A DNA stretch of 26,724 nucleotides, from the IMG/VR virus record IMGVR_UViG_3300046477_000515, positions 1 through 26,724 of that record; one strand, given 5' to 3'. Origin of the DNA: a virus. This document shows positions 6,918 through 23,732 of the stretch, piece after piece (position 1 is the first letter of the stretch; each line of letters opens with the position of its first letter). The notes under the pieces were generated by a model. The model searched no databases, was not told the DNA's origin, and was given only the letters and a program-made list of their open reading frames with translations. A program made the translations under genes and the position numbers.

Positions 6918-7487
6918 TCAGGTCGTCCCTGCCCCGGTCAGCACCTCAACCCGGCACGCCGCCGCGGCGCTGTCGGGAAACTGCTCGACCTCCCATTCGC
7001 CGGGCGCGGCAATCTTCACGATGTAGGAGCCGCTGGTGATCTCGACGTCCCGGTTCGGCAACACCACCCACACCCGATTGTCGACTCGCACCTGCACGAC
7101 ATGAACCCGATCAGGGTCATCGACCTTGAGGCCTCGCAGGGCGAGCGCGCGCAGCTGCTGATGATAGTGCGGCTCGCGCCACACCAGCGGATAGCTTCCA
7201 TCGACCGTCACCGTGACCGTCTGCACGCCGCCGATCTTCGCCAGCGACAGGATCATATGGCAGGTCAGCGGATACCAGTCGTCACCGACGCCGCGCGATA
7301 ACATCCAGCCGCAAAAATAGCCGCGGCAAATCTGCGGCCGGGCGTCGTGGATCGCGCAGCCACCGTGACCTGGCTTGCAATGCTGGCACCATTGATTGGC
7401 CGCCTTGTCGAGCTCGAGCACGCGCAGGAGCTTGCAGCAGAGGGAGCATTTCCCGCACTCGCGTCCCGTTGTGATCTCGATCTTCAT
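6918..7487 (-). CDS. YkgJ-type Cys-cluster protein, 189 aa
   Basis: The N-terminus has ECGKCSLCCKLL (Cys11, 14, 17, 18), followed by Cys34, Cys37, Cys44, Cys54 and Cys59 in WCQHCKPG, GGCAIHD and QICRGYFCG. This is the CxCxxCC-type cluster of the YkgJ/Fe-S-or-zinc-binding family, whose role is poorly known. The C-terminal 110 residues are beta-rich and outside the family core. The ATG at 7487 comes 12 bases after the stop of the fibre gene with GGCGAGG just upstream; the upstream in-frame ATG at 7511 would overlap that stop. It is the last gene of the late operon, so it is probably expressed late. Possible roles include protein modification or redox work, but this is inference. Confidence 0.8.
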   Translation of the reverse strand: MKIEITTGRECGKCSLCCKLLRVLELDKAANQWCQHCKPGHGGCAIHDARPQICRGYFCGWMLSRGVGDDWYPLTCHMILSLAKIGGVQTVTVTVDGSYPLVWREPHYHQQLRALALRGLKVDDPDRVHVVQVRVDNRVWVVLPNRDVEITSGSYIVKIAAPGEWEVEQFPDSAAAACRVEVLTGAGTT

Positions 7488-7498
7488 GGCCTCGCCAA

Positions 7499-9139
7499 TT
7501 ACATGGACCAATTACCGAAGCCGGACGGAGGCGTAAAGGCGAAGGCGGACCCACCGAAATTCGCGGTCATGTTGTCGTTAAGCGCAGTACCGGTGCCACC
7601 GAACGTCAGATTCGGTGCGATGGCGGATCCACCAGTGGAGCCAGAACCAATGTAGCCGACTCCAGTTGCCGGATTGGCCGTCGGGTCACCATTCCAGTTA
7701 CCGCTGTTTCTTCGAACCCACACTTTTCCGTTGGTGAGATCAGCCGCATAACAAATGACATCTCCCGCCGTCCACGTCCCGACTGTCTTCCCCGTATTGG
7801 TGCCAACATAAAAGATCAGCCCACCCCCTCCATTAAACGCGACGACACCTCCCTGTCCTGAAATTATCGACGCAAAATTAGTACCTGAAATGACCAACGC
7901 AACGGAATCGTTGTTACCATGTGACGCTCCTATGGTAACCTCGAAATAATACTTGCCGGTGCTCAACAACATGGTGCTGGTCGCACCGGAATTTGAAGCA
8001 GTGCTGTTGTGCGTCGCCTTCAAATTACCATTCGTCAACGTGACATTGGCGGTCGTGCCATCAAACGTGGCGAGCACGGCAGACGCTGGTATTGTCGGTG
8101 CGTAGATTGTATCGACGTCGACGAACCCACCAGGAAGCAGGGACTTATCGAGGCCGAGGACTACATTTGCTATCAGTGGGATGGTATCGACATCGATCCA
8201 AATGTGCGGTGCCAGGCGTTGGAATAGAATTACGTTCGGTGCATATACAGTGTCGGTGAAATCGACGAGCGCGTCGAACGGCCATAGCGCCGGGTTGGAA
8301 CCAATAAACGGTGACAGGAAGGTGTCGTCGCTTCCTACCGACGCCGGCAACAGCGATGCGTAATGCACAACCGGTACGAAGAAGATATCATCATCGACGA
8401 ACAGACCCATCCGTCCAGGTGTTCGCAATTCCGGACCGATGAATACGTCGACGTCTAGGATGCGACTTGGGTTCAGTTGATTGAATATGAAGGGCGCGAA
8501 GAGTGTGTCTGCCGAACTGAACGCCCCAGGTTTGATGAAGGCAACTTGACCCGCCGGGTAGATGGCATCGTTGTTGGGGGAGTATTCGGTGACAAGACCG
8601 GGCCGAAGTCCGCTCCCCAACGTTGTGGTGAAGATGGCATCAGTATCAACAAAAACGTCGAGCAGTAGAACAACAGCATCATTGTGTCGAATGACCGACG
8701 GTCCGTAAATGATGTCGGCATCGATGACATTTTGGATCGGGAACGTCTGGTTGATCGTCGCCTTGCCCAGCGTGACCTTCTTGACGCCACCGAAGACATC
8801 GACATCGACGAACAGTTGCGGACCCAGCACATTGCTGAGAACAATCGGTGGGGCAATGATGTCATTGGCGACAACAAGTGGTGGAACGATGGCATAGGCC
8901 GCACCCTTGCTGAAACCATAGAAGACGTCGGGATCGACGACGAGCGCCGGATAGATACTGTTGTCAACATCACCGACATAGGGTTGATAGATCGTATCGC
9001 CTTCAACGAACGACCCTTCAAACAACAGAAAACCGGGGACACGAATAGTCGCCTGCGGAAAGACATCCGGATCCACATAGCCGTCGATTGGAACTGCCAA
9101 TCCCAGCAGCAACTCTTCCGCGATGACACCGACAATCAT
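7499..9139 (-). CDS. Tail fibre-like protein: ~15 D-x-D repeats plus C-terminal SPRY-like domain, 546 aa
   Basis: Residues about 1-370 are built from imperfect repeats of 18-27 residues with the pattern L-x-P, a few residues, D-x-D or its variants, then a hydrophobic strand and Pro. Examples are FVDVDTIYAPTIP, LFVDVDVFGG and LVVDPDVFYG. About 15 units can be counted. Residues about 370-546 resemble a SPRY/concanavalin-like domain, with KYYFEVTIGA, GDVICYAADLTNGKVWVRRN and APNLTFGG. The whole suggests a long repeat shaft ending in a binding head. The ATG at 9139 overlaps the stop of the previous gene (ATGA), so I chose it over the longer frame. It lies last among the tail adhesins. A second protein with the same repeat lies at 19366-20724. 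Base composition is lower in GC than that of neighbours. Function as a receptor-binding fibre is inference. Confidence 0.75.
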   Translation of the reverse strand: MIVGVIAEELLLGLAVPIDGYVDPDVFPQATIRVPGFLLFEGSFVEGDTIYQPYVGDVDNSIYPALVVDPDVFYGFSKGAAYAIVPPLVVANDIIAPPIVLSNVLGPQLFVDVDVFGGVKKVTLGKATINQTFPIQNVIDADIIYGPSVIRHNDAVVLLLDVFVDTDAIFTTTLGSGLRPGLVTEYSPNNDAIYPAGQVAFIKPGAFSSADTLFAPFIFNQLNPSRILDVDVFIGPELRTPGRMGLFVDDDIFFVPVVHYASLLPASVGSDDTFLSPFIGSNPALWPFDALVDFTDTVYAPNVILFQRLAPHIWIDVDTIPLIANVVLGLDKSLLPGGFVDVDTIYAPTIPASAVLATFDGTTANVTLTNGNLKATHNSTASNSGATSTMLLSTGKYYFEVTIGASHGNNDSVALVISGTNFASIISGQGGVVAFNGGGGLIFYVGTNTGKTVGTWTAGDVICYAADLTNGKVWVRRNSGNWNGDPTANPATGVGYIGSGSTGGSAIAPNLTFGGTGTALNDNMTANFGGSAFAFTPPSGFGNWSM

Positions 9140-10536
9140 CCGACGATGCTCGGGTCTGGTGTGTATTTTCTGATCAAGGCAGTCGGTTGGAACTGGTCGG
9201 TCGTACCGGTGTTGGCGCCAGTTATCCAATTCTTGCTCGTGTGCAACAGGAGCTCGGGCTTCTTGCCGAGCAACTGTTCCGCCAGTGGTCGCGGATCGTC
9301 CGCGGTGCCCGTTATTGGATCGGCTACGGTGCCCTTTGTCGGGTCGACAGGCTTCAGGGTTGCCTTGCCATCCTTGTCGCGGATCACATTGCCCTTATCA
9401 TCGCGCACATAATCAATGAATGCGCGACGATTGCTGTCAACACTGGTATCCAGCGTCACCTCGGTAAACATTTGAAACTCGGCCATCTCTACGCGGAGGA
9501 TGGAATCAACAAATTGTGGATTAGCAGGGATGCCCAACGGGGTGTCGATTCCCGCCGGGGTCCTGGATGTCGGAAGAGGCGTGGAAACATATTTGCATGT
9601 CGGTGCCGGTGCTGCCAGGTTTCCGATGTAAAAGTTCGCTGCCCCAGCAACGCTCCAGGCATTATCCGTCAGAATTGCATTCCGATCGTCACCGCCGCTG
9701 ACGAAGAACGGACCCAGATTATCTTCGCCATCGTAGTTTTTGTCATCGATGGCGTACCACAATTTGCAATAGCTGTCGGTCCCTTCCGCTATGGTCTCGT
9801 TCCGCCCCGCACCAGGCTCCACAGGAGCGTGGGTCTTGCAATCATTGCTCAGATCGAACGACAGCAGCAGATGATGCCACTGATCCGGCGCGATCGGGAA
9901 TGTCGTCTTGACCTTAAAGTACTCCGGCCTGGCATTCGACGCTTCCGGGAAATCCTTGATTCCGAGAGTAAGTCCCGCGTGAGGATTGATAGGCGGTACA
10001 GCGTTGTAATAATCCCAACCCGAGCCAGGAACCGTCGTCGGATCGAAATTTGGTCCCCAGCCAGGTGGCAATCCGCCCGGCAGGTCTGCGTCGAGGAGGT
10101 ACAGCTCCACTCCGGTCTGGGTTGACGCCATGCCGACAACATCGGCATGACCGGCAGTTTGCAGGATGAACGATAAAGCGGCAGTGATCTTCGATGGATC
10201 GGAAATGCTTCCGCCGCAATTGACGGCAATACAACACGGATCGGCCAGAAACGTCCCCTTGCTGGTGTAGCCGCTTACACCGTAAACAGGAGGAGCGTCT
10301 GCCCTAGGAAAATTCATGGCTTTGCTTACATCGACAAAATCAGGCTCGAGGTCTTCCACCTTGGGTGCAACGCCGAATGTCAACAATGGGATCGCCGTAT
10401 TCATCAAGTCGCTAAATCCAGGTTGGAAAGGCTTGCTCGCAGCTGTCGTGATCGATGCTTGCGGTATGCGGAACCAAAACGAAATCACCGCTTTGGAAAA
10501 ATCCGGGAGACCTCCCGGCAGGGTCAAATAACTCAT
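9136..10536 (-). CDS. Tail-associated LamG/concanavalin-like adhesin, 466 aa
   Basis: The start at 10536 (MSYLTLPGGLPDFSKAVISF) overlaps the previous stop. The sequence has the strand pattern of a LamG-like jelly roll: VISFWFRIP near the start, DQWHHLLLSFDLS in the middle, LWYAIDDKNYDG, AANFYIGN and VEMAEFQMFTEVTLD later. This fold usually binds sugars. Three inserts (residues about 80-200) expand the domain. The C-terminal ~70 residues hold DDKGNVIRDKDGKATLKP, a loop of Asp/Gly turns, and a short segment rich in Leu before the end. No signal peptide, as expected for a virion protein. It probably binds surface polysaccharide; the partner is unknown. Confidence 0.7.
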   Translation of the reverse strand: MSYLTLPGGLPDFSKAVISFWFRIPQASITTAASKPFQPGFSDLMNTAIPLLTFGVAPKVEDLEPDFVDVSKAMNFPRADAPPVYGVSGYTSKGTFLADPCCIAVNCGGSISDPSKITAALSFILQTAGHADVVGMASTQTGVELYLLDADLPGGLPPGWGPNFDPTTVPGSGWDYYNAVPPINPHAGLTLGIKDFPEASNARPEYFKVKTTFPIAPDQWHHLLLSFDLSNDCKTHAPVEPGAGRNETIAEGTDSYCKLWYAIDDKNYDGEDNLGPFFVSGGDDRNAILTDNAWSVAGAANFYIGNLAAPAPTCKYVSTPLPTSRTPAGIDTPLGIPANPQFVDSILRVEMAEFQMFTEVTLDTSVDSNRRAFIDYVRDDKGNVIRDKDGKATLKPVDPTKGTVADPITGTADDPRPLAEQLLGKKPELLLHTSKNWITGANTGTTDQFQPTALIRKYTPDPSIVG

Positions 10537-11294
10537 GGCGTCGATAACTGTTTCTGAGGATCCAGCGCGTTGGTTGCTCCGTCGCCAAACTCCACGGCGA
10601 GGCCGCCTCCCCAACTCACATTGACTATGTTCTGCAATGGATCGAGCCGCCACGGTGGATCGACCTCGGTGGTATCCGGCTGATCGGATCCGAATAGTCG
10701 CACCCAGTCGTTGTTGCCGAATTGCAGCAAGGGATCACTGAGCGAGTCGATCCCCCAAATATGCTTTTGCCAGATTAGACCATTGCCGGACGTACTGGTG
10801 AACTCCTGGATAATCTCGACCAGCAGGAATTGGCTGTCGTCCTTGCTGGCGAGCTGCACCGCATTGATATAATCGGCCATTGCGCTGGGTGGCTGACCGT
10901 TTCGGTCAATGGCGTCGCTTGCAAGGTCATAGCGATCAACTCTCCGGGTGTGAACGACGCGCGTGATGTTGTCTGGGTCGTTTCCATATGCGTGCGCTGC
11001 TCTCTGATAATCAAGTCCGGCACCGGCCTCGAGCGCTATGGCCGTTCGGATCGGGACCTTGAGGGTGATGCTCTCGTCATCAGGCTTTGTGATCTTTTTG
11101 ATTTCAGCCTTGTTCGGATCCGTTGGGTCGAATGTCGACCAATCATACGTGAAGACGTATCTTTGATAGGCGAGACCGGTGCCGACATCAAAAACTAATC
11201 TGTCAATGCGCTCGACATCGACCCAAGTATCACTTGTGGTGTCGTCGTCCTCATAGATTCGAACGACATGTGACACACGACCATCACCTGCCAT
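10533..11294 (-). CDS. Tail-tip structural protein, 253 aa, unknown family
   Basis: Reads MAGDGRVSHVVRIYEDDDTT at the start; no recognised domain. It is acidic and beta-rich, with long charged segments such as IKKITKPDDESITLKVPIRT. No membrane segment. It overlaps the next gene (ATGA at 10533-10536) and starts 3 bases after the stop of the CBM-like protein, so it belongs to the tail-tip/adhesin operon. Structural role is by position only. Confidence 0.65.
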   Translation of the reverse strand: MAGDGRVSHVVRIYEDDDTTSDTWVDVERIDRLVFDVGTGLAYQRYVFTYDWSTFDPTDPNKAEIKKITKPDDESITLKVPIRTAIALEAGAGLDYQRAAHAYGNDPDNITRVVHTRRVDRYDLASDAIDRNGQPPSAMADYINAVQLASKDDSQFLLVEIIQEFTSTSGNGLIWQKHIWGIDSLSDPLLQFGNNDWVRLFGSDQPDTTEVDPPWRLDPLQNIVNVSWGGGLAVEFGDGATNALDPQKQLSTP

Positions 11295-11297
11295 TTG

Positions 11298-12116
11298 TCA
11301 CACCGACAGTAAGCCGAACAGATCCCAGGTGTTGGCGCCGACCTTCTTTGCAGTTATGACCGCACCAGTCCCACCAGTCGCCGGTCGAAGTCCGGTGATC
11401 GTATTGATGGTAACCGCGGTGCCCGGCACCAGGGTCACCGGTGATGCAGTGCATTGTCGGAAGGAAATCTCGACCGAAAGCGGGAAACTCAATGTCGCGT
11501 CGCTCGGTATGGTGATGGAACAGCCGGACGCATTGACGCAGCGCACATAGCCTGCGATGTCGGCAAGGGTGAGCGTGTAGGTTGGATCCGGTGCCTCGCG
11601 CAATGTCATTGCGGGGAATATCGCCGGAGTTTGCCAATTAACGGCATAGTCTGCGTTACTGGACTTCGCGAGAAGTTGTCCCGTGAGTCCCCCAGGCGGG
11701 ATGATGCTCGACGGCTGCTCCAGCATCAGTCCGTAGTATGCGTGACCGGCCCCGTCGTTCGCCCCCGCATCGAACACAGTGGCGCTGATATGGTTGAACA
11801 ACACCATATAAACGGCACCGTTGTAGTCGGTGACATCGTTGAGCATGTAGTTCGTATTCGGTCGCCAGGTGCCGCGAAAGTTCCACGTCGTCACCGGCAA
11901 TGCGAACGGCCCCTGGATCGTCCCGTCGGTCATGTGAATGTAGAAGGCATTCCCACTGACCGCGAAATGATCGATGGAAACCAGTGTCGGTATCGTCTCC
12001 TCGGTGACGGTCAGACGATTGTTGATGTCGTAAAAATTGCCATCGACCTCGGCGGCAACGAGGTTTGCCCCCTTGCCGGCACCCCACGGTCCTATCGTTC
12101 GGTAAATGATTGCCAT
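11298..12116 (-). CDS. Tail fibre protein with CBM-like motif, 272 aa
   Basis: The N-terminus shows a common tail-fibre opening (AAEVDGNFYDINNRLTVTEE). Residues 78-106 (WNFRGTWRPNTNYMLNDVTD, then Tyr and Gly) have the spacing W-x5-Y-x3-D of carbohydrate-binding modules of the CBM5/12 type, a chitin/cellulose-binding fold. The last third is beta-rich: YTLTLADIAGYVRCV, ISFRQCTASPVTLVPG and a Gly/Thr-rich end. It probably helps the virion bind surface sugars. The ten residues INNRLTVTEE are almost shared with the holin-like protein (3220-3495), as is the DNA. Confidence 0.65.
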   Translation of the reverse strand: MAIIYRTIGPWGAGKGANLVAAEVDGNFYDINNRLTVTEETIPTLVSIDHFAVSGNAFYIHMTDGTIQGPFALPVTTWNFRGTWRPNTNYMLNDVTDYNGAVYMVLFNHISATVFDAGANDGAGHAYYGLMLEQPSSIIPPGGLTGQLLAKSSNADYAVNWQTPAIFPAMTLREAPDPTYTLTLADIAGYVRCVNASGCSITIPSDATLSFPLSVEISFRQCTASPVTLVPGTAVTINTITGLRPATGGTGAVITAKKVGANTWDLFGLLSV

Positions 12117-12129
12117 GCTTCAATCCGCA

Positions 12130-12390
12130 TCAGGCTTCTGGGGTGTTGACGACCTGGTAGCTCTGGCCGGGAGCGAGAATTATGCCGGTCGGAATCTCAT
12201 AGTAGTATTTGTCCTGGTAAAAGGATGCCGAAACCGAATAACCAGTCGAGATGGTCTTGGCCTTGCCGCCGAGCCCGATATTAATGATGACGTTCGGCTG
12301 TGGTGCAGCAGCCGCCGAAGCCAACGGTATGCGCGGCGGCGTCGTATCAAAAACGACAAATGGGCGAACAATCTGCTCAAGACTCGGCAC
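12130..12390 (-). CDS. Small tail protein, 86 aa
   Basis: A GTG start (12390) has GGAGG 6 bases upstream. The protein is mostly beta: MPSLEQIVRPFVVFDTTPP, NVIINIGLGGKAKTIS, TGYSVSASFYQDKYYYEIPT. It overlaps the end of the preceding 648-aa gene by 14 bases. No family is recognised; by position it may be a tail-tip or fibre-linking protein. Confidence 0.65.
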   Translation of the reverse strand: MPSLEQIVRPFVVFDTTPPRIPLASAAAAPQPNVIINIGLGGKAKTISTGYSVSASFYQDKYYYEIPTGIILAPGQSYQVVNTPEA

Positions 12391-14323
12391 TTGGAGCCTC
12401 CAGATTGATCATCGTCGGAACGATCAACGTCCCGACGGAAATATCGTACTCGGCCGCATAATCGGTTCCCGCCACTGATTTTAATTCCATCTCGAGCCAA
12501 GTCTGGTTGAGCGCGACGAATTCCTCGAACATCGCCTGCGCCTGTTGTTCCAATTGATTGTGGTGGTCCGCGGCAGTCTGCGCACTAGCCGGAACAGAAT
12601 TCGCGGGAGGGGAGGAAGCTGGCGTAGCCACGGGCATGCCGGGAAGATCGGGGGAGGGTGAGCCTTTATGCACCTCGTATTTGACGACCACCTGGTCATA
12701 CGTCAAAGGCAACACCAGACCGTCGTCGGTGACGCCACTCACCGGCACCGAAAATGCGACATCGGTCGTGGGCAGGCTGATGGTTGCATCCTTGTAGAAC
12801 TGGTAACCGACAGCCACGTAACCGTTATCGGCATAAACGGGACTGCCTTCGTTGATCGTGATAGCACCACCCTTGCCGACGACACTCTCGATCTGAACGG
12901 TGCCGATCAGTTGACCACTGCCGCCGTCGGCCTTGATATGATATTCGGTGATCTTGCCCAGCGCCTGCCCTCCCGGCAAGCGGGCGTCGTGTATCAACGC
13001 ATTCTTGCGACACGACAGATTGACGGCACGGTCCAACGTGCAATCGAAACCAATCTTGACAGCCCGCGCCGACTGCAGCAAATGTGCCCGCGCCACCAAC
13101 AGTGGGTATTGCAAGGACTGAATACCGCGGTCGGTCGGAAAAAACGCTGAGCGCCCCGGATCGGTCAGCGCTATTTCACCGGACGGCAACGGCAAGCCGA
13201 CATCGACGCCATTCATGGTCAATGCGATTGGAGCTGCCGCCTCGTCAACCGGTGTGGTCACTATGTCCTGCAGCGCACTGTTCATCGTGAAGCTGGCAAT
13301 TTCAGTGCGCCCCCTGGACATGCCATATTGCAAGGTCAAATTGGCTTTCAAAAAATAGGCGAGGAGCCCTAGATAATGATATTCCTCCGACGCCGATGAC
13401 GCCCCGCCGGTGGTGGAGCTGCCGGGAACAATGGATCCGGCGGACCACACAAGATTGCCATATGTGTCCACCCCGTTGTAGACCGTCTCATTGATACTCA
13501 CCGATAATGTGTCGCCGGTGCGATGCTTGCTCTCTTGGTTAGTGTAGCTGCCGGTGAGATTGTAGGTGGCAGCATTGCCAATGTTGTAAAGATCGTCAAT
13601 ATGGGCTTCGGCTATACTCCATCCTCCATTCAATGACGATCCTTGTTTCGGCCAACCTGACAGCCAGGCGTCACCGTTGTAGGCAGTGACTTTCAATTCC
13701 GGCATTTTGATCGTGCCGCCACCGGCCTGCGTCCACGTCACGCTACCGGTGAAGATGACCTGCGTCTGCGGCGATTGCCCAAAGCGGAGAGAAACACTGT
13801 CGTAGAATGAGTCTTCCGGTTTGAACTCTTCCGTCCCGTCCTCGCCCATAACAATATCGGATGTCGTGACGTTGAGAGTCACCCGATCAATGTGCCACGC
13901 CCTGGTATAGGATTCGAGGATCGTATCGGGATCGTTGATCTTCGTCTTGTCGATCCAGATCTGATCGTAGTACGGCGACACCTTGAGCGCGTCGGCGACC
14001 GCTTGCTTCTGAGCTAGGTAGTCGGGCGGGCGAGCCAGAAACTGCAGGGTCACGGTCTCATTGAACAAGTTGCTCGGCAACGCCGACAGACGTCCATTGA
14101 ACAACGGAACGATTTCACCGACCTGCGACACCCACGAGAACCAAACCCACTGCTTGCGCCCGGGCGCCAACAGACCGATGCGCGGGTTTTTGATCTCGAC
14201 GCTGAGCGTCGGGATCTGGCCCTCCAGGTGCGCCAGATCGAACGTCAGCACAACCTCGTCCTCGCGCAGGAGGCCGGGATCGAAAGGTGTGTTCGCGTCG
14301 ACCCAGGCAAAATGGAACGGCAC
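12377..14323 (-). CDS. Probable tail hub/baseplate protein, 648 aa
   Basis: A large beta-rich protein begun by GTG at 14323 with GGAGG 8 bases upstream. It opens PFHFAWVDANTPFDPGLLRE, then EDEVVLTFDLAHLEGQIPTL with a barrel-like strand pattern (FNGRLSALPS, VTLQFLARPPDYLAQ). These features are seen in central tail hub proteins that attach to the tube end. The last 100 residues are a Pro/Ser-rich linker and a helix (NQLEQQAQAMFEEFVALNQ) that may bind a partner. It lies after the tape measure and the 150-aa gene, where lambda-type and related phages encode tip proteins. Assignment to the hub is by context and fold-like impression. Confidence 0.6.
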   Translation of the reverse strand: MPFHFAWVDANTPFDPGLLREDEVVLTFDLAHLEGQIPTLSVEIKNPRIGLLAPGRKQWVWFSWVSQVGEIVPLFNGRLSALPSNLFNETVTLQFLARPPDYLAQKQAVADALKVSPYYDQIWIDKTKINDPDTILESYTRAWHIDRVTLNVTTSDIVMGEDGTEEFKPEDSFYDSVSLRFGQSPQTQVIFTGSVTWTQAGGGTIKMPELKVTAYNGDAWLSGWPKQGSSLNGGWSIAEAHIDDLYNIGNAATYNLTGSYTNQESKHRTGDTLSVSINETVYNGVDTYGNLVWSAGSIVPGSSTTGGASSASEEYHYLGLLAYFLKANLTLQYGMSRGRTEIASFTMNSALQDIVTTPVDEAAAPIALTMNGVDVGLPLPSGEIALTDPGRSAFFPTDRGIQSLQYPLLVARAHLLQSARAVKIGFDCTLDRAVNLSCRKNALIHDARLPGGQALGKITEYHIKADGGSGQLIGTVQIESVVGKGGAITINEGSPVYADNGYVAVGYQFYKDATISLPTTDVAFSVPVSGVTDDGLVLPLTYDQVVVKYEVHKGSPSPDLPGMPVATPASSPPANSVPASAQTAADHHNQLEQQAQAMFEEFVALNQTWLEMELKSVAGTDYAAEYDISVGTLIVPTMINLEAPSAES

Positions 14324-14326
14324 GGC

Positions 14327-14779
14327 TCAAACCTCCTCGAGATCGAGTTCCCAAGGCACGGTCCCAGCCCATTCGTCCGTCTGAACCTGATAATCGACGA
14401 TCATCATCGTCAACCGCGGCAGGTAGAACACAAAACCGCCTTCGGTGAAATCACTCCCAGCGATTACGGGCCGGCGCGGTGTCCCGCCAACTGGATAACT
14501 CAGGTAGGAGACGCAATCGACGACCACCGTCAAACCGGGAAATATGCCATCGACCGCTGGGGCGCGGGCATCGGTGCATGTGATCTTCGACTTGTATTTG
14601 AGAAACTGCGGATTGTTGACATCTGTCATAACACCATTGATTGATCGACGCTGATTTTTTGCGGCATCAATTGGTTGGATCAGTTGAGATAGTCCACGCG
14701 CAGAGTACAGCGGCACACCCATGACGCTGAGCGCAAGCAGCGTCTGGCTGTTGGACGGTGGGCCTGGATACAGCGTCAC
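14327..14779 (-). CDS. Tail protein, 150 aa, unknown family
   Basis: A GTG start at 14779 directly follows the tape measure stop. The protein has SQTLLALSVMGVPLYSARGL at the start, an even spread of beta segments (KITCTDARAPAVDGIFPGLT, VSYLSYPVGG) and an acidic end (WELDLEEV). It lies between the tape measure and the hub-like gene, where distal tail proteins are commonly found. No motif proves the role. Confidence 0.6.
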   Translation of the reverse strand: MTLYPGPPSNSQTLLALSVMGVPLYSARGLSQLIQPIDAAKNQRRSINGVMTDVNNPQFLKYKSKITCTDARAPAVDGIFPGLTVVVDCVSYLSYPVGGTPRRPVIAGSDFTEGGFVFYLPRLTMMIVDYQVQTDEWAGTVPWELDLEEV

Positions 14780-16312
14780 TCACCGCCTCCAGCTCTGCTT
14801 TCGTCCCGCACTGGCGATTTGACTACCGACCGCAAAGCGCTCGAGCGCGGAGGCGACGCCCTCCTGCATGGTCGCCGGCCCGAACGACCGGCCTTCGATC
14901 GTGAGGTGAAGCGCGCGCGAGCCGGCGGTCGCCCCCGCGAGCGACGGTGTACCTCCGGTATTCAACCCGCCCAACGCGAAGCGCGGAGCCAATGAATTGA
15001 TGGCGTGCAAGAACGGCAGCCCTACGCTGCGCACGGCTTGCGCCCGCACCACGAACTCACCCGCCGTCAGCCATGCGAGGTTGGTGTCGGTCCCTGGACG
15101 CCCCTGCACCTCGCCGCCCGCTGCCATCCCGCCGCCGCCACCCGCAGATACCGACGCGCCGCCGCCGGTCAGCCCGGCCCACAACGCCTTGGCGGCATCG
15201 ACCAGCCCCTGGATCCAGCCGCCGATCGTATCGATCACCGACTTGATCGGAGTAAGCATCGACGCGAAGGCGGCCACGACGGCGTGCTCAAGCTGCCCGA
15301 CGTAGCCCATGAAATTGGCGAACCCGGTCGCAAGAACCGCCCCCACCGCTTGCACCCACCCGCGCGCGCCGGTCTCCGCGTCGCCCGCGACTTGCGCCCA
15401 TGCCTTCTTGGATGCCGCAGCAAATTCATCCCATCCCTTCGCCAGATTATCGATAGACTTCTGCTGCTCCGGCGTGAAGAACGGCTTGGCGGCCGCGTCG
15501 TGCGCCTGCCTGACCGCATCGGTACCCTTCTTGATCCGTTCAATCTGCTCGGCGGAAAAGAAATCCTTCATCGTCTTTTCTAAATCTACACGCTGAAACT
15601 GATTCGCCGTCGCGTAGACCTGCGAGAAGAACACCTCCAACTGCTTGATGGCGTCGGCTGCCCGCTTCCCGCCGGCGGCAAGATCATCGAGGATCACGCC
15701 ACTGCGCTCTGCCGCCTCCAGCAAACCCTTCTTAAAGTTTTCCGGAGAGGTCAGTGACTCATATGCTCGCTTGACGCCATCGCGCAGGTATAGAAATTCG
15801 TCGGCGAGATGGTGGACGTCGTTCGCCCATTCCTTGTCTCCCTTCGCGGCGTTCATCGCCGCTCTGATCTGGATTATATTCTGAATGTGTTCGGTCGCTT
15901 CTTGCGCTGCTTTTTTCGTCTCTTCTATCTTGCCCTTGATGTAGGAGAACGCTTCGGCGGCGGCGAACAGCGCGAGTCCGATCGGCCCCAGCGCCGCCCC
16001 GATCTTTACGAACCCGACGGCGACGCTGGCCGCCGCTCCTTCGCCGACGGTGCGCATGACCGCGCCCATCGCCCGCATCTGGCGCGTGGTGACGACGGTT
16101 TTCTCCGTAACCTGCTCCAGCCCGGCGCCAAGCTTTTGCGCGCCAGTGCCCACCTGACCCGCCGCGGCCTGCACGCCGCCCATCGACTGCCCGGCGCTGT
16201 CGGCGGCCTTCTCCAACTTGTTGAACGAAGTCTGCGCGGTATCGCCAACCTTGGCGAGCGCGGTGTCATCGACCTCGATAACGACTTTTTGGACAATGTC
16301 TTCGTCGGCCAT
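14780..16312 (-). CDS. Tape measure protein, 510 aa (short)
   Basis: The N-terminus is a helical Ala/Gly/Gln-rich stretch. It has VGDTAQTSFNKLEKAADSAG, two hydrophobic segments around residues 95-125 (VAVGFVKIGAALGPIGLALF) and further Ala-rich helices, typical of tape measures. Near the C-terminus there is GGEVQGRPGTDTNLAWLTAG then EFVVRAQAVRSVG, a motif common in tape measure tails. AAAGGTGAG lies before the ATG. At 510 aa it predicts a tail of roughly 75 nm by the usual 0.15 nm per residue rule, short for a siphovirus. The protein sets tail length and probably helps DNA passage. It follows the G/G-T frameshift genes as expected. Confidence 0.88.
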   Translation of the reverse strand: MADEDIVQKVVIEVDDTALAKVGDTAQTSFNKLEKAADSAGQSMGGVQAAAGQVGTGAQKLGAGLEQVTEKTVVTTRQMRAMGAVMRTVGEGAAASVAVGFVKIGAALGPIGLALFAAAEAFSYIKGKIEETKKAAQEATEHIQNIIQIRAAMNAAKGDKEWANDVHHLADEFLYLRDGVKRAYESLTSPENFKKGLLEAAERSGVILDDLAAGGKRAADAIKQLEVFFSQVYATANQFQRVDLEKTMKDFFSAEQIERIKKGTDAVRQAHDAAAKPFFTPEQQKSIDNLAKGWDEFAAASKKAWAQVAGDAETGARGWVQAVGAVLATGFANFMGYVGQLEHAVVAAFASMLTPIKSVIDTIGGWIQGLVDAAKALWAGLTGGGASVSAGGGGGMAAGGEVQGRPGTDTNLAWLTAGEFVVRAQAVRSVGLPFLHAINSLAPRFALGGLNTGGTPSLAGATAGSRALHLTIEGRSFGPATMQEGVASALERFAVGSQIASAGRKQSWRR

Positions 16313-16327
16313 GTTATGTGCTCACCT

Positions 16328-16935
16328 TTAGTCCGTGTCAGACAACAGTTTTGCCAGATGTTGCTGCATGCCCTTGCCGTCGCCGTTGGCGTTACACAGG
16401 TTGACGAACTCGTGGGCGAGGTTGATTTGACGATTGCGTTCGGACAACTTTATCCAGGCTGCTAATTGACGGGTGGTGAGGCTCCACGCGTCAGACCAGG
16501 AGAGTCCGTCTGCAATACTGCGTTGGATGGCGCGTGCGATGAGTTCCCCGGCCCGCTCGACTGGCTCGGCGCATCCATTACCATCAACCGGGTTATCTGA
16601 TCGACGAAAGGGCCGAAGCCCTGCGGAAACGATAGTTTCTGCACCGCCGAGAGGATCGCCATTTGGTCGGCCGCCCCGAGCTCCCTTGCCTTTGCTATAA
16701 CGGCTACGTCGCCAGGCGAGCCGGTGGCTATCGCGATCACTTTTGCGAACAGATCGGGTGCCAACTCCAACATGCCGGAGCTGCTGGTACCCATTTGCGC
16801 GAGCGCTTGCTGCATATTGGGGAACTCGGCAAACAATTTGAACAGGTCGGCGGCCGTCAACCCATGCACCGTTAGTTTGAGGCCGCGAACATCGACTTCT
16901 TCGGTCAGCGGGCCGAGATCAAGCAGGCTGTTCAT
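16328..16935 (-). CDS. Tail assembly chaperone G-T fusion (programmed -1 frameshift), 202 aa
   Basis: The G frame (16462-16935) has a slippery site at 16606-16612. From there the -1 frame is open and reads RRSDNPVDGNGCAEPVERAG, then ELIARAIQRSIADGLSW, TTRQLAAWIKLSERNR, LAHEFVNLCNANGDGKGMQQ and HLAKLLSDTD, ending TAA at 16328. This gives 110 residues of G plus 92 of T. Lambda and many long-tailed phages make a G-T chaperone this way to build the tail around the tape measure, which begins at 16312, 15 bases downstream. The extension has real protein character; the frame lacks any start codon of its own with a ribosome binding site. Confidence 0.8.
16462..16935 (-). CDS. Tail assembly chaperone G, 157 aa
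   Basis: This is the product made without frameshifting. It reads MNSLLDLGPLTEEVDVRGLK with an N-terminal beta strand and helices (GLTAADLFKLFAEFPNM), then ALAQMGTSSSGMLELAPDLF and an Ala-rich helical region. After residue 110 (the slippery site) the sequence turns Ser/Pro-rich and low complexity, as expected of a tail that is only read in the unshifted product. AAAGGAG lies about 9 bases before the ATG. It sits between the major tail protein and the tape measure. Confidence 0.82.
   Translation of the reverse strand: MNSLLDLGPLTEEVDVRGLKLTVHGLTAADLFKLFAEFPNMQQALAQMGTSSSGMLELAPDLFAKVIAIATGSPGDVAVIAKARELGAADQMAILSAVQKLSFPQGFGPFVDQITRLMVMDAPSQSSGPGNSSHAPSNAVLQTDSPGLTRGASPPVN
16606..16612 (-). 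promoter_or_regulatory. -1 frameshift slippery heptamer C CCT TTC
   Basis: On the minus strand the bases CCCTTTC are in frame as C-CCT-TTC within codons GGC CCT TTC of gene G. This fits X-XXY-YYZ with X=C and Y=T. It is the only canonical heptamer I found in the region where the -1 frame is open. Confidence 0.75.
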
Positions 16936-16960
16936 TTACCGTTGCTCCTTTGTTTTGCGC

Positions 16961-17812
16961 CTACGTGGCCGCCGCTACCAGCGTATTCGTGCTGGTCGCT
17001 GGCGTACTGCCGATCGGATTGACGCCGGTGACGATCACCTTGAACGATTTGCCGGTGTCCCCGGCGACCACCGTATAAGTCTTGCCGGTCTGCGGTGGAG
17101 AGATCGGAACCCATGGGCCAGTAGTGCCAGTGACGCTCTGCCATGCGTAGGTATAGCTATGCGCTCCCGTCCATCCGCCGATCGTTGCGGTCAGAACATC
17201 CCCGACCTTGGGCGCACCAGGCGAGGAGACGGAGGCGCCGCCAGTGATCGTCGGCAGCAACACATTTGATGGCGCAATGGAATTCACCGGCGGCATCAGC
17301 GTCATTGTCCCGAACACACCGTCGATCGACTGCACCGAGCCACTGACCACCATTTTGATGAAGGCGTTGTCGATGATGGGCGAAAAATCACCACTGGGCG
17401 TCAGATTAACGCTGAGCAGATCGACATACCAACGCGGACCGACCTCGTTGGTGGCATAGAACTTCAGCTCACCGATGAACGAGCTGCGCGAGAAGATTTG
17501 TACCTGCGGATTTGACGGGGTGCCACCATCATTGCCGACGTCGCCCATCAGCAACATCGCCAAATTCTGCGCGGTCAACTCTTCCAGGTCCATCTTCACC
17601 TCGCCAGACTTCTCGGTGATGATGCTCAAATCCTTGATGCGCGACCCTCCCATCGATGAATAATGGTCGAGCAAGGTGACCTTGGGCGTGAAGGTAAACG
17701 TCGGCACGTTCCCGACGTGAAAGAAGCTGGCCTGATCGGTCGGCTTGAACAAGATGAAGCCCTTGCCGACAGCAAGGTTACTGACATCCGGGCTACTGAC
17801 ACCGTAAGCCAT
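16961..17812 (-). CDS. Major tail protein with C-terminal Ig-like domain, 283 aa
   Basis: The first ~180 residues (MAYGVSSPDVSNLAVGKGFI onward) have the beta pattern of a tube-forming major tail protein, with KPTDQASFFHVGNVPTFTFT and a late TLMPPVN. After a Pro-rich join, residues about 188-283 form an Ig-like domain. GAPKVGDVLTATIGGWTGAH, YTYAWQSVTG, KTYTVVAGDTGKSFKVIVTG and NPIGSTPATS show the strands B to G pattern, including the conserved Trp. Ig-like domains on the outer face of tail tubes are common and are thought to aid weak binding to surfaces. AAGGAG lies about 9 bases before the ATG. It is upstream of G/G-T, as in lambda. Confidence 0.82.
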   Translation of the reverse strand: MAYGVSSPDVSNLAVGKGFILFKPTDQASFFHVGNVPTFTFTPKVTLLDHYSSMGGSRIKDLSIITEKSGEVKMDLEELTAQNLAMLLMGDVGNDGGTPSNPQVQIFSRSSFIGELKFYATNEVGPRWYVDLLSVNLTPSGDFSPIIDNAFIKMVVSGSVQSIDGVFGTMTLMPPVNSIAPSNVLLPTITGGASVSSPGAPKVGDVLTATIGGWTGAHSYTYAWQSVTGTTGPWVPISPPQTGKTYTVVAGDTGKSFKVIVTGVNPIGSTPATSTNTLVAAAT

Positions 17813-17832
17813 GGTTTGATTCTCCTTCTCTT

Positions 17833-18306
17833 TTAGTTGAGGTCGTTCGGGTCGAGGACATAGCTCAGTCGAAAGTTAAGTTGCATTTGACCGACTACAG
17901 TCGACCCGGTCTGCAAATCCGTGATATGGCCAGAATGTATCAGCTCGCCGTTCGCACCGAGCAGCGCCCACAGCTCGTCATCTTTGGTGAACGCTTTAAG
18001 CACCTGCATCCGCAGCCCGGACAATTCCTCGCCAACGCCGGGATTGTCTATGGTGTCGCGCGGTCGCAGGACAATGAACACCTGCGGCGTCAGCTCGAAT
18101 ATGCCAGGGGCGCGCGCGCCCCCACGAGTATGCACCGCCTGCGGGTTTTTGAGGGTCTCACTGCCGTCGAGCAAGACGAGCGCCGGGAGCTTCTCAGTGG
18201 GGATTTCGGCGCGATTGCGGAACACGTTCAAGGGATCGGCCGTGCCGTTCACCGTCCCCAGCAGCGACACCATGCGCAGGAGTATGGCCTCGCGTTTGTC
18301 CTGCAT
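17833..18306 (-). CDS. Probable tail terminator / minor tail protein, 157 aa
   Basis: The protein starts MQDKREAILLRMVSLLG, a helix, and goes on to KLPALVLLDGSETLK, FELTPQVFIVLRPRDT and a helix ELSGLRMQVLKAFTKDDELW. This alternation of one helix, a sheet and a strand ending in VGQMQLNFRLSYVLDP is similar to gpU-like tail terminator proteins. It lies directly before the major tail protein, the usual position for terminators. The TGA of the preceding gene overlaps its ATG (TGATG). The family is not certain. Confidence 0.65.
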   Translation of the reverse strand: MQDKREAILLRMVSLLGTVNGTADPLNVFRNRAEIPTEKLPALVLLDGSETLKNPQAVHTRGGARAPGIFELTPQVFIVLRPRDTIDNPGVGEELSGLRMQVLKAFTKDDELWALLGANGELIHSGHITDLQTGSTVVGQMQLNFRLSYVLDPNDLN

Positions 18307-18647
18307 CAGCGCCGCACCTGCAGTTCCCAGTAAACCACCACATTGCCAGGCACCAATTTCCCGACCGGCGAAACGATACGCAGGGTCTCGAGCTCGGCGC
18401 CGGTCACGGGGTCGAGTGTCACCAGCCGGTCCTGCTCAGAGTCCGGATCAACCGTGAGATCGACCGGCGACAACAGAGCCTTGCGGTCGGTCTGGTTGAT
18501 GATCTTGCCTACGCGTTCGTGCGGCATGTAGTCCGAGATGAAGGCGAAGCACGGTCGATCGCCGTCGTCGCGCCGCAGGATTGCCGGCGCGCCGTATTTG
18601 CGGATCATGCCCTCGGCAATGGCGCGTTCCCTGGCGTAGTCGATCAT
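18306..18647 (-). CDS. Head-tail joining / neck protein, 113 aa
   Basis: I chose the ATG at 18647 (MIDYARERAIAEGMIRKYGA) because it overlaps the stop of the DUF4054 gene (ATGA). The longer frame upstream is a low-complexity shadow. It has an N-terminal helix, then beta strands ILRRDDGDRPCFAFISDYMP and VPGNVVVYWELQVRR. A small protein of this size between an adaptor and a tail terminator is typical of a head-closure or stopper protein. Its fold resembles gp16-like stoppers in outline only. Confidence 0.6.
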   Translation of the reverse strand: MIDYARERAIAEGMIRKYGAPAILRRDDGDRPCFAFISDYMPHERVGKIINQTDRKALLSPVDLTVDPDSEQDRLVTLDPVTGAELETLRIVSPVGKLVPGNVVVYWELQVRR

Positions 18648-19369
18648 ACGATGGCGATCCCCGGACTGTTGCGCCGCATCACCGCGAGGAACATCAACCC
18701 ATACGATGAATTGGTCAGGGACGGATAGGCCGACCCGCCGGAAGAGCTCGAAGCCGCCGCATACTGGACCGAAATCTGTCCGATCCGTTCGGACGTGACC
18801 AAACGCCCCGCTCCACCCGCTGCCGCCTGGCCCTGCGCTATGAAATGGGCCGCCAGGTAGAAAGTCGCGGCCTGCGCATCCACCGGGTCCCAATCGTCGC
18901 CGATGAAAAGCGCGGCCTCATCCAATGCCGTCTGCACCACGCTGTCGTCCACCGCCATGAACTCGGGAAACATGGATTTGAAGGCGACGACATTGATTGG
19001 GTTCGCGGTGTCGATCACCGTCATCGTTCCGATAGTCGGCGTCGAGCGATGCGTCGGATCGACATCCAGCGGATTGATGATGACGATCTCGTAGAAATAA
19101 TTACCCGCCAACGCCAAGGTATCGGCGCTGCGCAATTTAACCACGAAGGCGTAGCTTGCCGCGTCCTCGATCAAGATACCGCCGCCAGCCAGCGTCTTTG
19201 TGATCGCGGCCATGGTCTTATCGGCAACACCGCGCACTTGCGGATATGCCGTCCAACTCAATTGCGTCTGCGAGATGTCGAACGGCGGATCTGGAGGCGG
19301 CGTGATGCCGTAATCGACATCGGTAGTATCTCCGGTGATCAGGCTGAAGTTCTGCCGAAGTTCGGTCAT
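18644..19369 (-). CDS. Head-tail adaptor: BppU-like N-domain fused to DUF4054, 241 aa
   Basis: Residues about 125-241 match DUF4054 adaptor proteins in pattern. AFKSMFPEFMAVDDSVVQTA is followed by a helix with DEAALFIGDDWDPVDAQAAT and FYLAAHFIAQGQAAAGG, then the characteristic end SYGLMFLAVMRRNSPG. Residues 1-121 are a separate beta-rich domain, MTELRQNFSLITGDTTDVDY then ILIEDAASYAFVVKLRSADT and LAGNYFYEIVII. They look like the N-terminal BppU-type Ig-like domain that is usually a stand-alone gene or attached to a fibre. DUF4054 adaptors form a ring on the portal. Here the fused domain may decorate the neck or tie fibres to it. Its ATG overlaps the stop of the repeat protein, and its stop overlaps the next start. 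Confidence 0.72.
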   Translation of the reverse strand: MTELRQNFSLITGDTTDVDYGITPPPDPPFDISQTQLSWTAYPQVRGVADKTMAAITKTLAGGGILIEDAASYAFVVKLRSADTLALAGNYFYEIVIINPLDVDPTHRSTPTIGTMTVIDTANPINVVAFKSMFPEFMAVDDSVVQTALDEAALFIGDDWDPVDAQAATFYLAAHFIAQGQAAAGGAGRLVTSERIGQISVQYAAASSSSGGSAYPSLTNSSYGLMFLAVMRRNSPGIAIV

Positions 19370-20724
19370 GCTGCCTTCTTGCTTATCGAGCCGCGTAGCT
19401 TCCTGGGATAGGCCGTGGTCCCGAACATGTAAGCCGGGTCAGTGGTAGTCCCGAACATGTACTTCGGATCGGACACGGAGCTGAACAAATAAGCCGGATC
19501 AGAAACGGTCCCGAACATATCAGCCGGATCGGGAACCGAGCCGCTCATCGGCGGCTTAGGAACTGATTGCAATCCACCGATAACTTTGTTGTGCGGAAAT
19601 TGGTCGAATGCATATACCAGCGGCGGCCTAAGCATAGCGGCAGTCTGGCCGACGTTCCTCGGCGCCAAGATATCGTCGACGTCTTGATGCAGCGGCGCAT
19701 GAATATTTGCCGCTCCCGGCACCAGTATCGGCGAAGGAAGAAGATCAATATCGGCAACAGAAGCAGCATGCAATGCAACGCTGACAACAAGTTGGGGCGG
19801 CCCATGGAAGGTCTCGGCATCAGACACGAGACCGGGCGCGAAAATGATGGACTGGCCGATAACGCCGGTAGGAACACTGTCATTGTCGGCAAGCAGGCTG
19901 GGCAGCAAGCCGGCGCCGGCGCTCGAACTCGCGGCGAAGACCGTATCGGACGTGGGCAATGCCGCCGGCTGGAGCGCAACGGCGCCCGGAATAACCACGG
20001 CAGCGGGAAAGACATCGACGTCGGGATAAAGCGTTGGGAGTAGATTGCCGCCGAGCGCAAGCCCACCGGGGTAGATCGCGTCGTCGGTGGCATAGAGGGC
20101 GGGTGCGAGGAATTGGGTCGAGAGCCTGATATTGGTTACAGCGATCACATCGGCATCGGTGACCAGCGTCGGCAGAGCGACTTGCGAAAACAGCGGAGGA
20201 TAAGAGGCATCCGGATCGGTAACCAGCGACGGCGAGAGCGGCGCTGCGCCGGCCTGCGCGCCAGGCGCCGATATCGCATCTACATCGGTGACCTTCTGCG
20301 GCAACAATGCCGCCGATGCTGTGGGCGCGTAGGTCGCATCTAGATCAGGGACGAGAGCCGGCAATAACTTCGCGCTGGCAACAGCGGTCGCTGGGATAGC
20401 AGTATCTGGATCGGTGATTGCCGTGGGCGACAGGGTGACAGTCCCAGCCGCAAGAGCTGGGGCCGCGATCGCATCGGCGTCACTGACGGGTATTGGCAAC
20501 AGATACGAGACAGAAGCAGGGGAATAAAAAGCGTCAGCATCGCGAAAACACTGCGGAAAATTGTCGGCGGTTAGAGCTGTGACGTCCGCGGTCCAGCTTG
20601 TGGTATCGGTCGTCGGGGCTGTGATGTCGAATGGCACCAACGTCTGGGTATCGGGATTTGGATTTTGCTCAATCCAAATTCCGACGCCGAAACGTGTTCT
20701 GCCGATGCCAGGAATGAATGGCAT
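19366..20724 (-). CDS. Structural protein of ~14 D-x-D repeats, 452 aa
   Basis: From about residue 60 on, the protein is an array of 14 repeats of about 21-24 residues. Unit pattern: L-x-P-x-hydrophobic, then V-x-D-x-D-x-hydrophobic with P nearby, then a variable Ala/Gly stretch. Units include LLPIPVSDADAIAAP, LLPALVPDLDATYAP and LLPTLYPDVDVFPAA. At the C-terminus (residues about 395-440) there are decapeptides such as DPAYMFGTTA repeated four to five times, encoded by a 30-bp tandem repeat. The repeat unit matches the one in the 546-aa protein at 7499-9139. The first 60 residues differ and have no family. It lies in a head/neck gene area. A repetitive beta structure, perhaps a fibre or sheath, is inferred. 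The ATG lies 1 base after the stop of the preceding gene. Confidence 0.72.
   Translation of the reverse strand: MPFIPGIGRTRFGVGIWIEQNPNPDTQTLVPFDITAPTTDTTSWTADVTALTADNFPQCFRDADAFYSPASVSYLLPIPVSDADAIAAPALAAGTVTLSPTAITDPDTAIPATAVASAKLLPALVPDLDATYAPTASAALLPQKVTDVDAISAPGAQAGAAPLSPSLVTDPDASYPPLFSQVALPTLVTDADVIAVTNIRLSTQFLAPALYATDDAIYPGGLALGGNLLPTLYPDVDVFPAAVVIPGAVALQPAALPTSDTVFAASSSAGAGLLPSLLADNDSVPTGVIGQSIIFAPGLVSDAETFHGPPQLVVSVALHAASVADIDLLPSPILVPGAANIHAPLHQDVDDILAPRNVGQTAAMLRPPLVYAFDQFPHNKVIGGLQSVPKPPMSGSVPDPADMFGTVSDPAYLFSSVSDPKYMFGTTTDPAYMFGTTAYPRKLRGSISKKAA
19417..19546. repeat. 30-bp tandem repeats (decapeptide repeats)
   Basis: Units start at 19417, 19447, 19477 and 19507, exactly 30 bases apart, with a fifth degenerate one. 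A shared core is TCCCGAACATGTAAGCCGG with changes. Each unit encodes (S/T)DPxYMFGTx on the minus strand. The array lies at the 3' end of the repeat-protein gene and could vary in copy number. Confidence 0.75.
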
Positions 20725-22783: not shown

Positions 22784-23110
22784 CTATCTGCCATTCTTCT
22801 TCAGGTCGAATTCATCTTCCATGTGGTAGGCCATGCGGACAACTTGCGTGTGCGGGATCACCGTCCTTCGTCTGCCTGTGACAGCGTCATAGTGGTTGGC
22901 CAGAAGCATCTGCTTGCCGCGCCCGAACAGCTCGTCGAATTTCTGTTCGGCATCCTTCCGCAAAGGATAGTTCTGCCGGATCGCATTGATCAGCACGTTG
23001 ACGGCGGCTCCCATCACCGCATCCAAAGGCATGCCGATCGACGCACGGGTGATGACGTCGAACAGCAGTTTTTCGTTCTGCGGTAGATTTTTTAGGGGAT
23101 CGCTAACCAT
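22784..23110 (-). CDS. Small helical phage protein, 108 aa
   Basis: The ATG at 23110 overlaps the stop of the S74 protein by 8 bases and gives MVSDPLKNLPQNEKLLFDVI. The protein is helical and charged (NVLINAIRQNYPLRKDAEQK, KFDELFGRGKQMLLANHYDA) with a conserved-looking turn TGRRRTVIPHTQVVRMAYHM. No known family. The longer in-frame ATG at 23161 is unlikely. It lies in the fibre block; it may be a chaperone or small adaptor. Confidence 0.65.
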   Translation of the reverse strand: MVSDPLKNLPQNEKLLFDVITRASIGMPLDAVMGAAVNVLINAIRQNYPLRKDAEQKFDELFGRGKQMLLANHYDAVTGRRRTVIPHTQVVRMAYHMEDEFDLKKNGR

Positions 23111-23732
23111 GAATGGCGTGATCCATGACCTTCGCGTAGTCGACGGCCTGATAGGCGCCAAACCGGCCGACGCAATCCGGATATTGCTGCGCTACTTCGT
23201 GCGCCAACACGCCAACCGAAGGGGTGTGCGAGCGGCGGTAGTTGTAGCGGTACAGCGGCAGGCCATCCGGCAACTCACCGATGCGGATGATGTCTTCCTT
23301 CGCCTCGGCATCGCTCAAGGTAAATATCCCCGAGGCGTTCCAAGTGATGACGATGTTGCCTCCATTAGGTGTGACTGGCAAACCAGTCACCGACGTATCT
23401 TCGAACAGCACCAGGCGCCAGGTGGTGTTGGCTCCGGCGTTCTGCCGGTAGATCACGATCGCCCCGACCACCGTGCCCGAGACCGCCGTGAAGGTGACGT
23501 CGTCACCGTCGAACGTCCCATTGGCGACCGTCGGGGTGGTGATCGGCTGCGGCGTGCCGACGATGTTCGTCAGTGACGAATAAAATTGATGCGCGGCCGA
23601 ATACGCGTACCCGGACGAGGTCGTGATCAAGGCAGCGTAGGGCGCATTACTGCCCGTCTGGTTGAGTGACTTGTTGGCGTCGGCTTCGGTGAGAAGCGAC
23701 TGCTTGAATAGCGGGTAGACTGCGTTAGCCAT
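23103..23732 (-). CDS. Fibre/decoration protein with C-terminal S74 intramolecular chaperone, 209 aa
   Basis: Residues 1-138 form a beta-rich domain: MANAVYPLFKQSLLTEADAN, then GDDVTFTAVSGTVVGAIVIY and NTTWRLVLFEDT. From residue 138 the sequence FTLSDAEAKEDIIRIGELPD then GLPLYRYNYRRSHTPSVGVL, AHEVAQQYPDCVG and AVDYAKVM matches the peptidase S74 (endosialidase-type) chaperone. In that family, the Ser of SD and a Lys five residues later make the catalytic pair; here these are Ser140 and Lys145. The domain trimerises a fibre and then cuts itself off, so the mature protein would be ~139 aa. AGGAGG precedes the ATG. It is short for an S74 fibre, and the first domain is unlike a long fibre. Confidence 0.8.
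   Translation of the reverse strand: MANAVYPLFKQSLLTEADANKSLNQTGSNAPYAALITTSSGYAYSAAHQFYSSLTNIVGTPQPITTPTVANGTFDGDDVTFTAVSGTVVGAIVIYRQNAGANTTWRLVLFEDTSVTGLPVTPNGGNIVITWNASGIFTLSDAEAKEDIIRIGELPDGLPLYRYNYRRSHTPSVGVLAHEVAQQYPDCVGRFGAYQAVDYAKVMDHAIHG

Follow-up and report, generated by a model that had tools for sequence, protein, structure and literature searches.

P1 and P2, two proteins encoded by a single phage, are built from tandem copies of the same short D-x-D repeat, and pattern-plus-tblastn scans of viral contigs recovered more than 30 further proteins of environmental phages, with 3-36 units each. On balance, we favor a reading in which the repeat forms the exchangeable shaft of an accessory virion adhesion appendage, paired in most phages with an arm encoded by a PHROG 644 gene. 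A fibre shaft had been proposed in the first-pass annotation of this DNA, and it remains the best reading in view of the linkage to PHROG 644 and the swappable head domains described below. The window (the whole stretch of DNA that was analysed, 26,724 bases) is an entire IMG/VR virus record, and P1 and P2 both occur with 100% identity in a 42,658-base contig of the same phage. Coordinates are collected in Table 1.

Table 1. Features of the window that bear on the repeat proteins and their neighbors
Feature	Position	Strand	Basis or remark
P1, 546 aa, ~15 D-x-D units then SPRY-like domain	7499..9139	(-)	ATG at 9139
P1 repeat array, aa 16-350	8090..9094	(-)	automatic segmentation
P1 SPRY-like domain, aa ~356-546	7502..8074	(-)	phrog_10080; phmmer to RanBP10; 81%-identical domain in L004
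P2, 452 aa, ~15 D-x-D units and short-repeat tail	19366..20724	(-)	ORF and unit scoring
P2 repeat array, aa 55-334	19723..20562	(-)	automatic segmentation; by eye 2 more units to ~aa 385
P2 C-terminal ~11-residue repeats (SVPDPADMFGT...)	19405..19563	(-)	read from translation
Head-tail connector (DUF4054)	18644..19369	(-)	phrog_302/477; immediately past P2
CxxCxxCC (YkgJ-like) gene	6918..7511	(-)	phrog_9155; PF03692 weak; immediately past P1
PHROG 644 gene, C-terminal S74-chaperone-like domain	23103..23732	(-)	phrog_644 E 1.8e-20; 2.4 kb upstream of P2

Counted by eye, each protein holds about 15 tandem units, where the initial counts were about 15 and about 14; automatic segmentation, with all relatives as the training set, returned 14 for P1 and 13 for P2. 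The two proteins matched each other by blastp at E 3e-13. Because the bias correction in HMMER swamped single 22-residue units, we scored ungapped chains of units against shuffled sequences. Using a unit matrix built from 82 units, all from other phages, P1 scored 60.6 (best shuffle 9.3) and P2 scored 58.3 (best shuffle 17.1; 2,000 shuffles), while all seven other window proteins tested scored 0. With P1 units, P2 scored 126 (shuffle maximum 49); reciprocally, P1 scored 123 with P2 units (shuffle maximum 46). Matrix and reciprocal scores this far above those of shuffled sequence indicate that the P1 and P2 units are homologous. The original claim of one repeat common to both proteins was therefore borne out by blastp and by both kinds of unit score, and the units aligned far better than the shuffled sequence proposed as their test. 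The repeats at the end of P2, taken initially for decapeptides, are in fact about 11 residues long, and the P2 orthologs in two related loci (L004 and L027) also end in LTGS-type repeats similar to this tail.

All structural genes in the window lie on the minus strand. The head end reads head protease, decoration-like head protein, major capsid protein, PHROG 644 gene, tail-fibre-like gene and P2, followed by the DUF4054 connector, tail terminator, major tail protein, tape measure and further tail genes. P1 is the last gene of the tail cluster ahead of the lysis genes; the CxxCxxCC gene and the endolysin follow it. The repeat proteins had been placed at opposite ends of the tail cluster, which holds for P1, whereas P2 lies between the major capsid and connector genes and not in the tail cluster proper. 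A 75.7-kb relative (contig G002, locus L058) carries orthologs of both at the same two places: its P2 ortholog precedes the DUF4054 connector, and its P1 ortholog is followed by an ortholog of the CxxCxxCC gene. This CxxCxxCC (YkgJ-like) domain, a separate gene within the virion gene cluster in the window and in G002, is fused N-terminally to a D-x-D repeat protein in L044:7157-11866. A truncated integrase-like frame at the window edge (2-463) and a helix-turn-helix regulator-like ORF (1332-1784), both judged from their sequence, suggest that the phage may be temperate.

The SPRY-like domain, previously described as a head, is present in P1 but sits at its C-terminus. It matched phrog_10080 (E 5e-13) and, by phmmer, the SPRY domain of RanBP10 (E 8e-4). 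The Pfam model PF00622 gave no match to P1 itself at E <= 1, while the closely related domain in L004 passed the Pfam cut-off (E 3.2e-7). The P1 ortholog in G002 (L058:6274-9684) is far longer, at 1,136 aa, and has four SPRY domains alternating with its D-x-D units; the same contig encodes two more SPRY proteins, one at each end. Elsewhere the same SPRY domain follows an EAASASDxxSA-type repeat that is not D-x-D (L005:9135-10064), and a SPRY head stands on collagen in L007. Conversely, D-x-D arrays carry other domains: a Gly_rich_2 domain in L018, and in L042:7724-10573 a zinc carboxypeptidase (M14, PF00246) inserted between two D-x-D blocks. Judged from these domain arrangements, shafts and heads are freely exchanged. 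Collagen-like phage shafts, although unrelated in sequence to the D-x-D repeat, occupy the same architectural place, as the L007 collagen stands where P1 has D-x-D units and both are joined to SPRY.

Across 34 proteins, 490 units gave the repeat consensus L-T-P-[SA]-L-[FY]-T-[DN]-x-[DN]-T-F-Y-A-P-T-V, after which come 3-9 variable residues. Units span 20-26 residues, mostly 20, 22, 23 or 25, and are rich in Pro, Ala, Gly and Thr. This composition, together with the low confidence of the AlphaFold models (see below), would be compatible with low-complexity, mostly disordered linkers that have no defined fold. We consider such linkers improbable, since several unit positions hold 2.5-3.3 bits of information, the lengths of the units fall into discrete classes, and covariation links pairs of positions both inside units and across them. 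Residue 16, for example, shows covariation with residues -1 to 3 of the unit that follows, a pattern that would fit either a hairpin-like contact or a coil corner. The Ca2+-binding beta-roll of RTX proteins was excluded, as no GGxGxD appears in the 490-unit profile and the units are mostly 20-25 residues long, unlike the nonapeptide GGxGxDxUx.

Unit positions 8 and 10 are coupled in an all-or-nothing manner. We counted 274 D..D units and 113 N..N units, two N..D units and no D..N unit; within the classes, E substitutes for D, and Q, S or T for N. Shuffling within proteins predicted 34 mixed units, with a minimum of 15 in 2,000 runs, compared with the two observed. The remainder of the unit is nearly identical between the D..D and N..N classes, and both coexist in 11 proteins, often alternating, as in L030: NNNANAANANANNN. 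Adjacent units agreed in class scarcely more often than by chance (79 v 70, p 0.008). The alternation and this near-chance agreement between neighbors place the coupling inside a single unit or, in an oligomer, between identical units. Two trivial sources of the coupling were considered and rejected. Asp and Asn codons are one base apart, so a mutational artefact should make mixed units common, and duplicate counting does not account for a coupling that persists after thinning to 50% identity (54/24/2).

The coupling suggests one cation site per unit, a shared site being arguably the simplest chemistry that would demand both residues or neither. The two acidic side chains of a D-x-D unit would thus probably share a cation, and the N-x-N unit would retain the same fold without it. 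Binding of Ca2+ at the Asp pairs had been put forward at the outset; the coupling is the pattern expected of a shared cation site, but the pair is not universal, as N-x-N, S-x-E and S-T-A variants were found. Cation binding cannot be essential to the fold, given that the acidic pair is missing from the S-T-A and S-x-E relatives. A metal-binding residue pair spaced one apart has a precedent in the T4 gp37 needle, where H929 and H931 bind iron along a trimeric fibre (PMC6957217). The likeness would be one of mechanism only, as the needle uses histidine and iron where the repeat has Asp and a putative cation, and the sequences are unrelated. For metal sites in fibres, the D..D/N..N switch provides a clean natural experiment. 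A bolder reading, which we consider quite unlikely, is that of a new class of shaft in which each 20-26-residue unit is an independent metal site, on (D..D) or off (N..N), plugged into the PHROG 644 arm. If true, a phage could adjust the stiffness or the ion dependence of its fibre one unit at a time, for instance in a homotrimer with six carboxylates around the axis.

The initial suggestion that the repeat spacing could form a beta-solenoid was examined using AlphaFold2. Monomer predictions of full-length P2 (55 rows) and a canonical L017 array of 9 units (90 rows) both gave one regular beta coil per unit, at low confidence (pLDDT 44 and 54, respectively). Such models would accord with a single-chain solenoid holding Ca2+ between coils through stacked D-x-D pairs: two runs with different queries converged on short-strand coils, and VIA-align returned Z up to 13.5 against beta-helix tailspikes and pectate lyases. 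However, Foldseek found no match to the models at E <= 1e-3, and AlphaFold2 over-predicts beta-solenoids for repeats (PMC11795689), so we take the solenoid as unproven. The mixing of D..D and N..N units within one protein, together with the near-chance agreement of neighbors, also makes the site look confined to a unit rather than shared between coils. We therefore regard the solenoid as possible but doubtful.

In all distinct contigs whose sequence extends at least 2.6 kb upstream of the repeat gene (20 of 20), an HMM search located a PHROG 644 gene upstream on the same strand, at distances of 4-7,124 nt. Its base rate was 210 in 50,697 phage records, and PHROG 644 was absent from the search pattern that found the repeat loci. 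At the repeat loci that lack it, the sequence ends no more than 1.7 kb upstream, and L016 lies at a contig end. PHROG 644 is also upstream in L046 and is located elsewhere in G002; P1 is not near it. In two contigs with SPRY heads but no D-x-D arrays, PHROG 644 was not found. Other kinds of repeat array lie near PHROG 644 in L072:4985-6841 (a Desulfofustis phage) and L068:5717-8378 (Pseudomonas phage F116), suggesting that the arm may take several kinds of shaft.

PHROG 644 is a family of 130-140 aa with no assigned function. In the window member, the S74 domain scored E 7e-4, slightly below the Pfam cut-off; S74 chaperones are typical of trimeric fibres. A family profile that included the window sequence matched chain Ra of PDB 9d93, named 'Tail wing arm, gp31' (E 3.6e-34). 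We take 9d93 to be from mycobacteriophage Bxb1, in line with citations in PMC13252515. In phage RidgeCB, the second gene past PHROG 644 matched the 9d93 'Tail wing brush, gp33', and the gene that follows PHROG 644 in the Mycobacterium phages Brujita and Catdawg encodes an S-x-A/S-T-A relative of the repeat. The 9d93 brush is glycine-rich, and a similar kind of sequence is fused to the D-x-D repeats of L018, but no chain of 9d93 was matched by any D-x-D array. Searched against solved structures, a profile of the repeat proteins hit no phage chain, its sole match up to E 10 being a nanobody (E 0.54). The placement of the repeat in a wing consequently rests on gene neighborhood.

We propose that P2 would be the repeat fibre that partners the PHROG 644 product encoded upstream, which by homology would be an arm attached to the tail or neck. 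P1 would form a second appendage, encoded at the end of the tail cluster and bearing a SPRY-like binding head. Array length would set reach and spacing, and the heads (SPRY, glycine-rich, carboxypeptidase or lectin-like) would contact the cell surface. Gene order also lends itself to another assignment, in which P2 and the proteins related to it would act as head fibres or decorate the capsid as fibres, bringing the phage to the cell surface in the manner of Hoc or the phi29 head fibre, and P1 would be a tail protein in its own right that has borrowed the repeat. P2 lies between the major capsid and connector genes, as noted above, most relatives are found among head and connector genes, and in L039, L035, L020 and L044 the repeat gene is between the portal and major head protein genes; carbohydrate-binding decoration proteins are also known (PMC7602432). 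Nevertheless, we judge a head fibre unlikely, because the constant partner has its homolog in a tail appendage protein, mycobacteriophages and Pam2 carry the pair near tail genes, and the tail cluster ends with P1, which has the same repeat. Under the appendage reading, a phage fibre repeat that is widespread but uncatalogued would gain a constant partner whose homolog has been solved, and many 'hypothetical' phage genes could become readable as one two-gene appendage module.

The repeat matched no Pfam or NCBIfam model, and a literature search on the 22-residue repeat found no paper, in line with the earlier statement that no family had been described. That statement needs qualifying, as PHROGs 8501 and 13352 ('minor tail protein') are, by sequence similarity, distant relatives of several D-x-D arrays, even though P1 and P2 themselves matched neither at E <= 1. 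These PHROGs were matched by relatives in L010, L013, L022 and L033, and PHROG 8501 matched the Pam2 array at E 3.7e-9. Their members Brujita gp24 and Catdawg gp61 share with the repeat the unit skeleton P-x-x-I/F-x-S-x-A-x-V-x-x-P-T-V-x-x-G and the PHROG 644 neighbor, but differ in having S-x-A for D-x-D, a short length (~132 aa) and no head domain.

Good matches among the 50,697 phage records came only from Pseudanabaena phage Pam2 and Microcystis phage Mwe-JY26. The Pam2 structural proteins identified by mass spectrometry are listed in a figure of the published description, the text of which does not name gp68. Weaker relatives included an S-x-E form in a Promineifilum plasmid, the S-x-A form in Brujita gp24, and forms with S-T-A turns in Catdawg gp61 and the prophage-like loci L064 and L065. 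In bacteria, where the repeat is rare, a consensus query gave no match in a first scan of genomes and a second scan identified one Mesorhizobium prophage. By profile search, 1 of 385 Alphaproteobacteria genomes carried arrays, as did 3 of 298 genomes from the family of Mesorhizobium sp. Root157. Within the window itself, a tail-fibre-like protein at 11298-12116 shows a weak match to the CBM_5_12 carbohydrate-binding module (E 3.8e-5, slightly below the Pfam cut-off).
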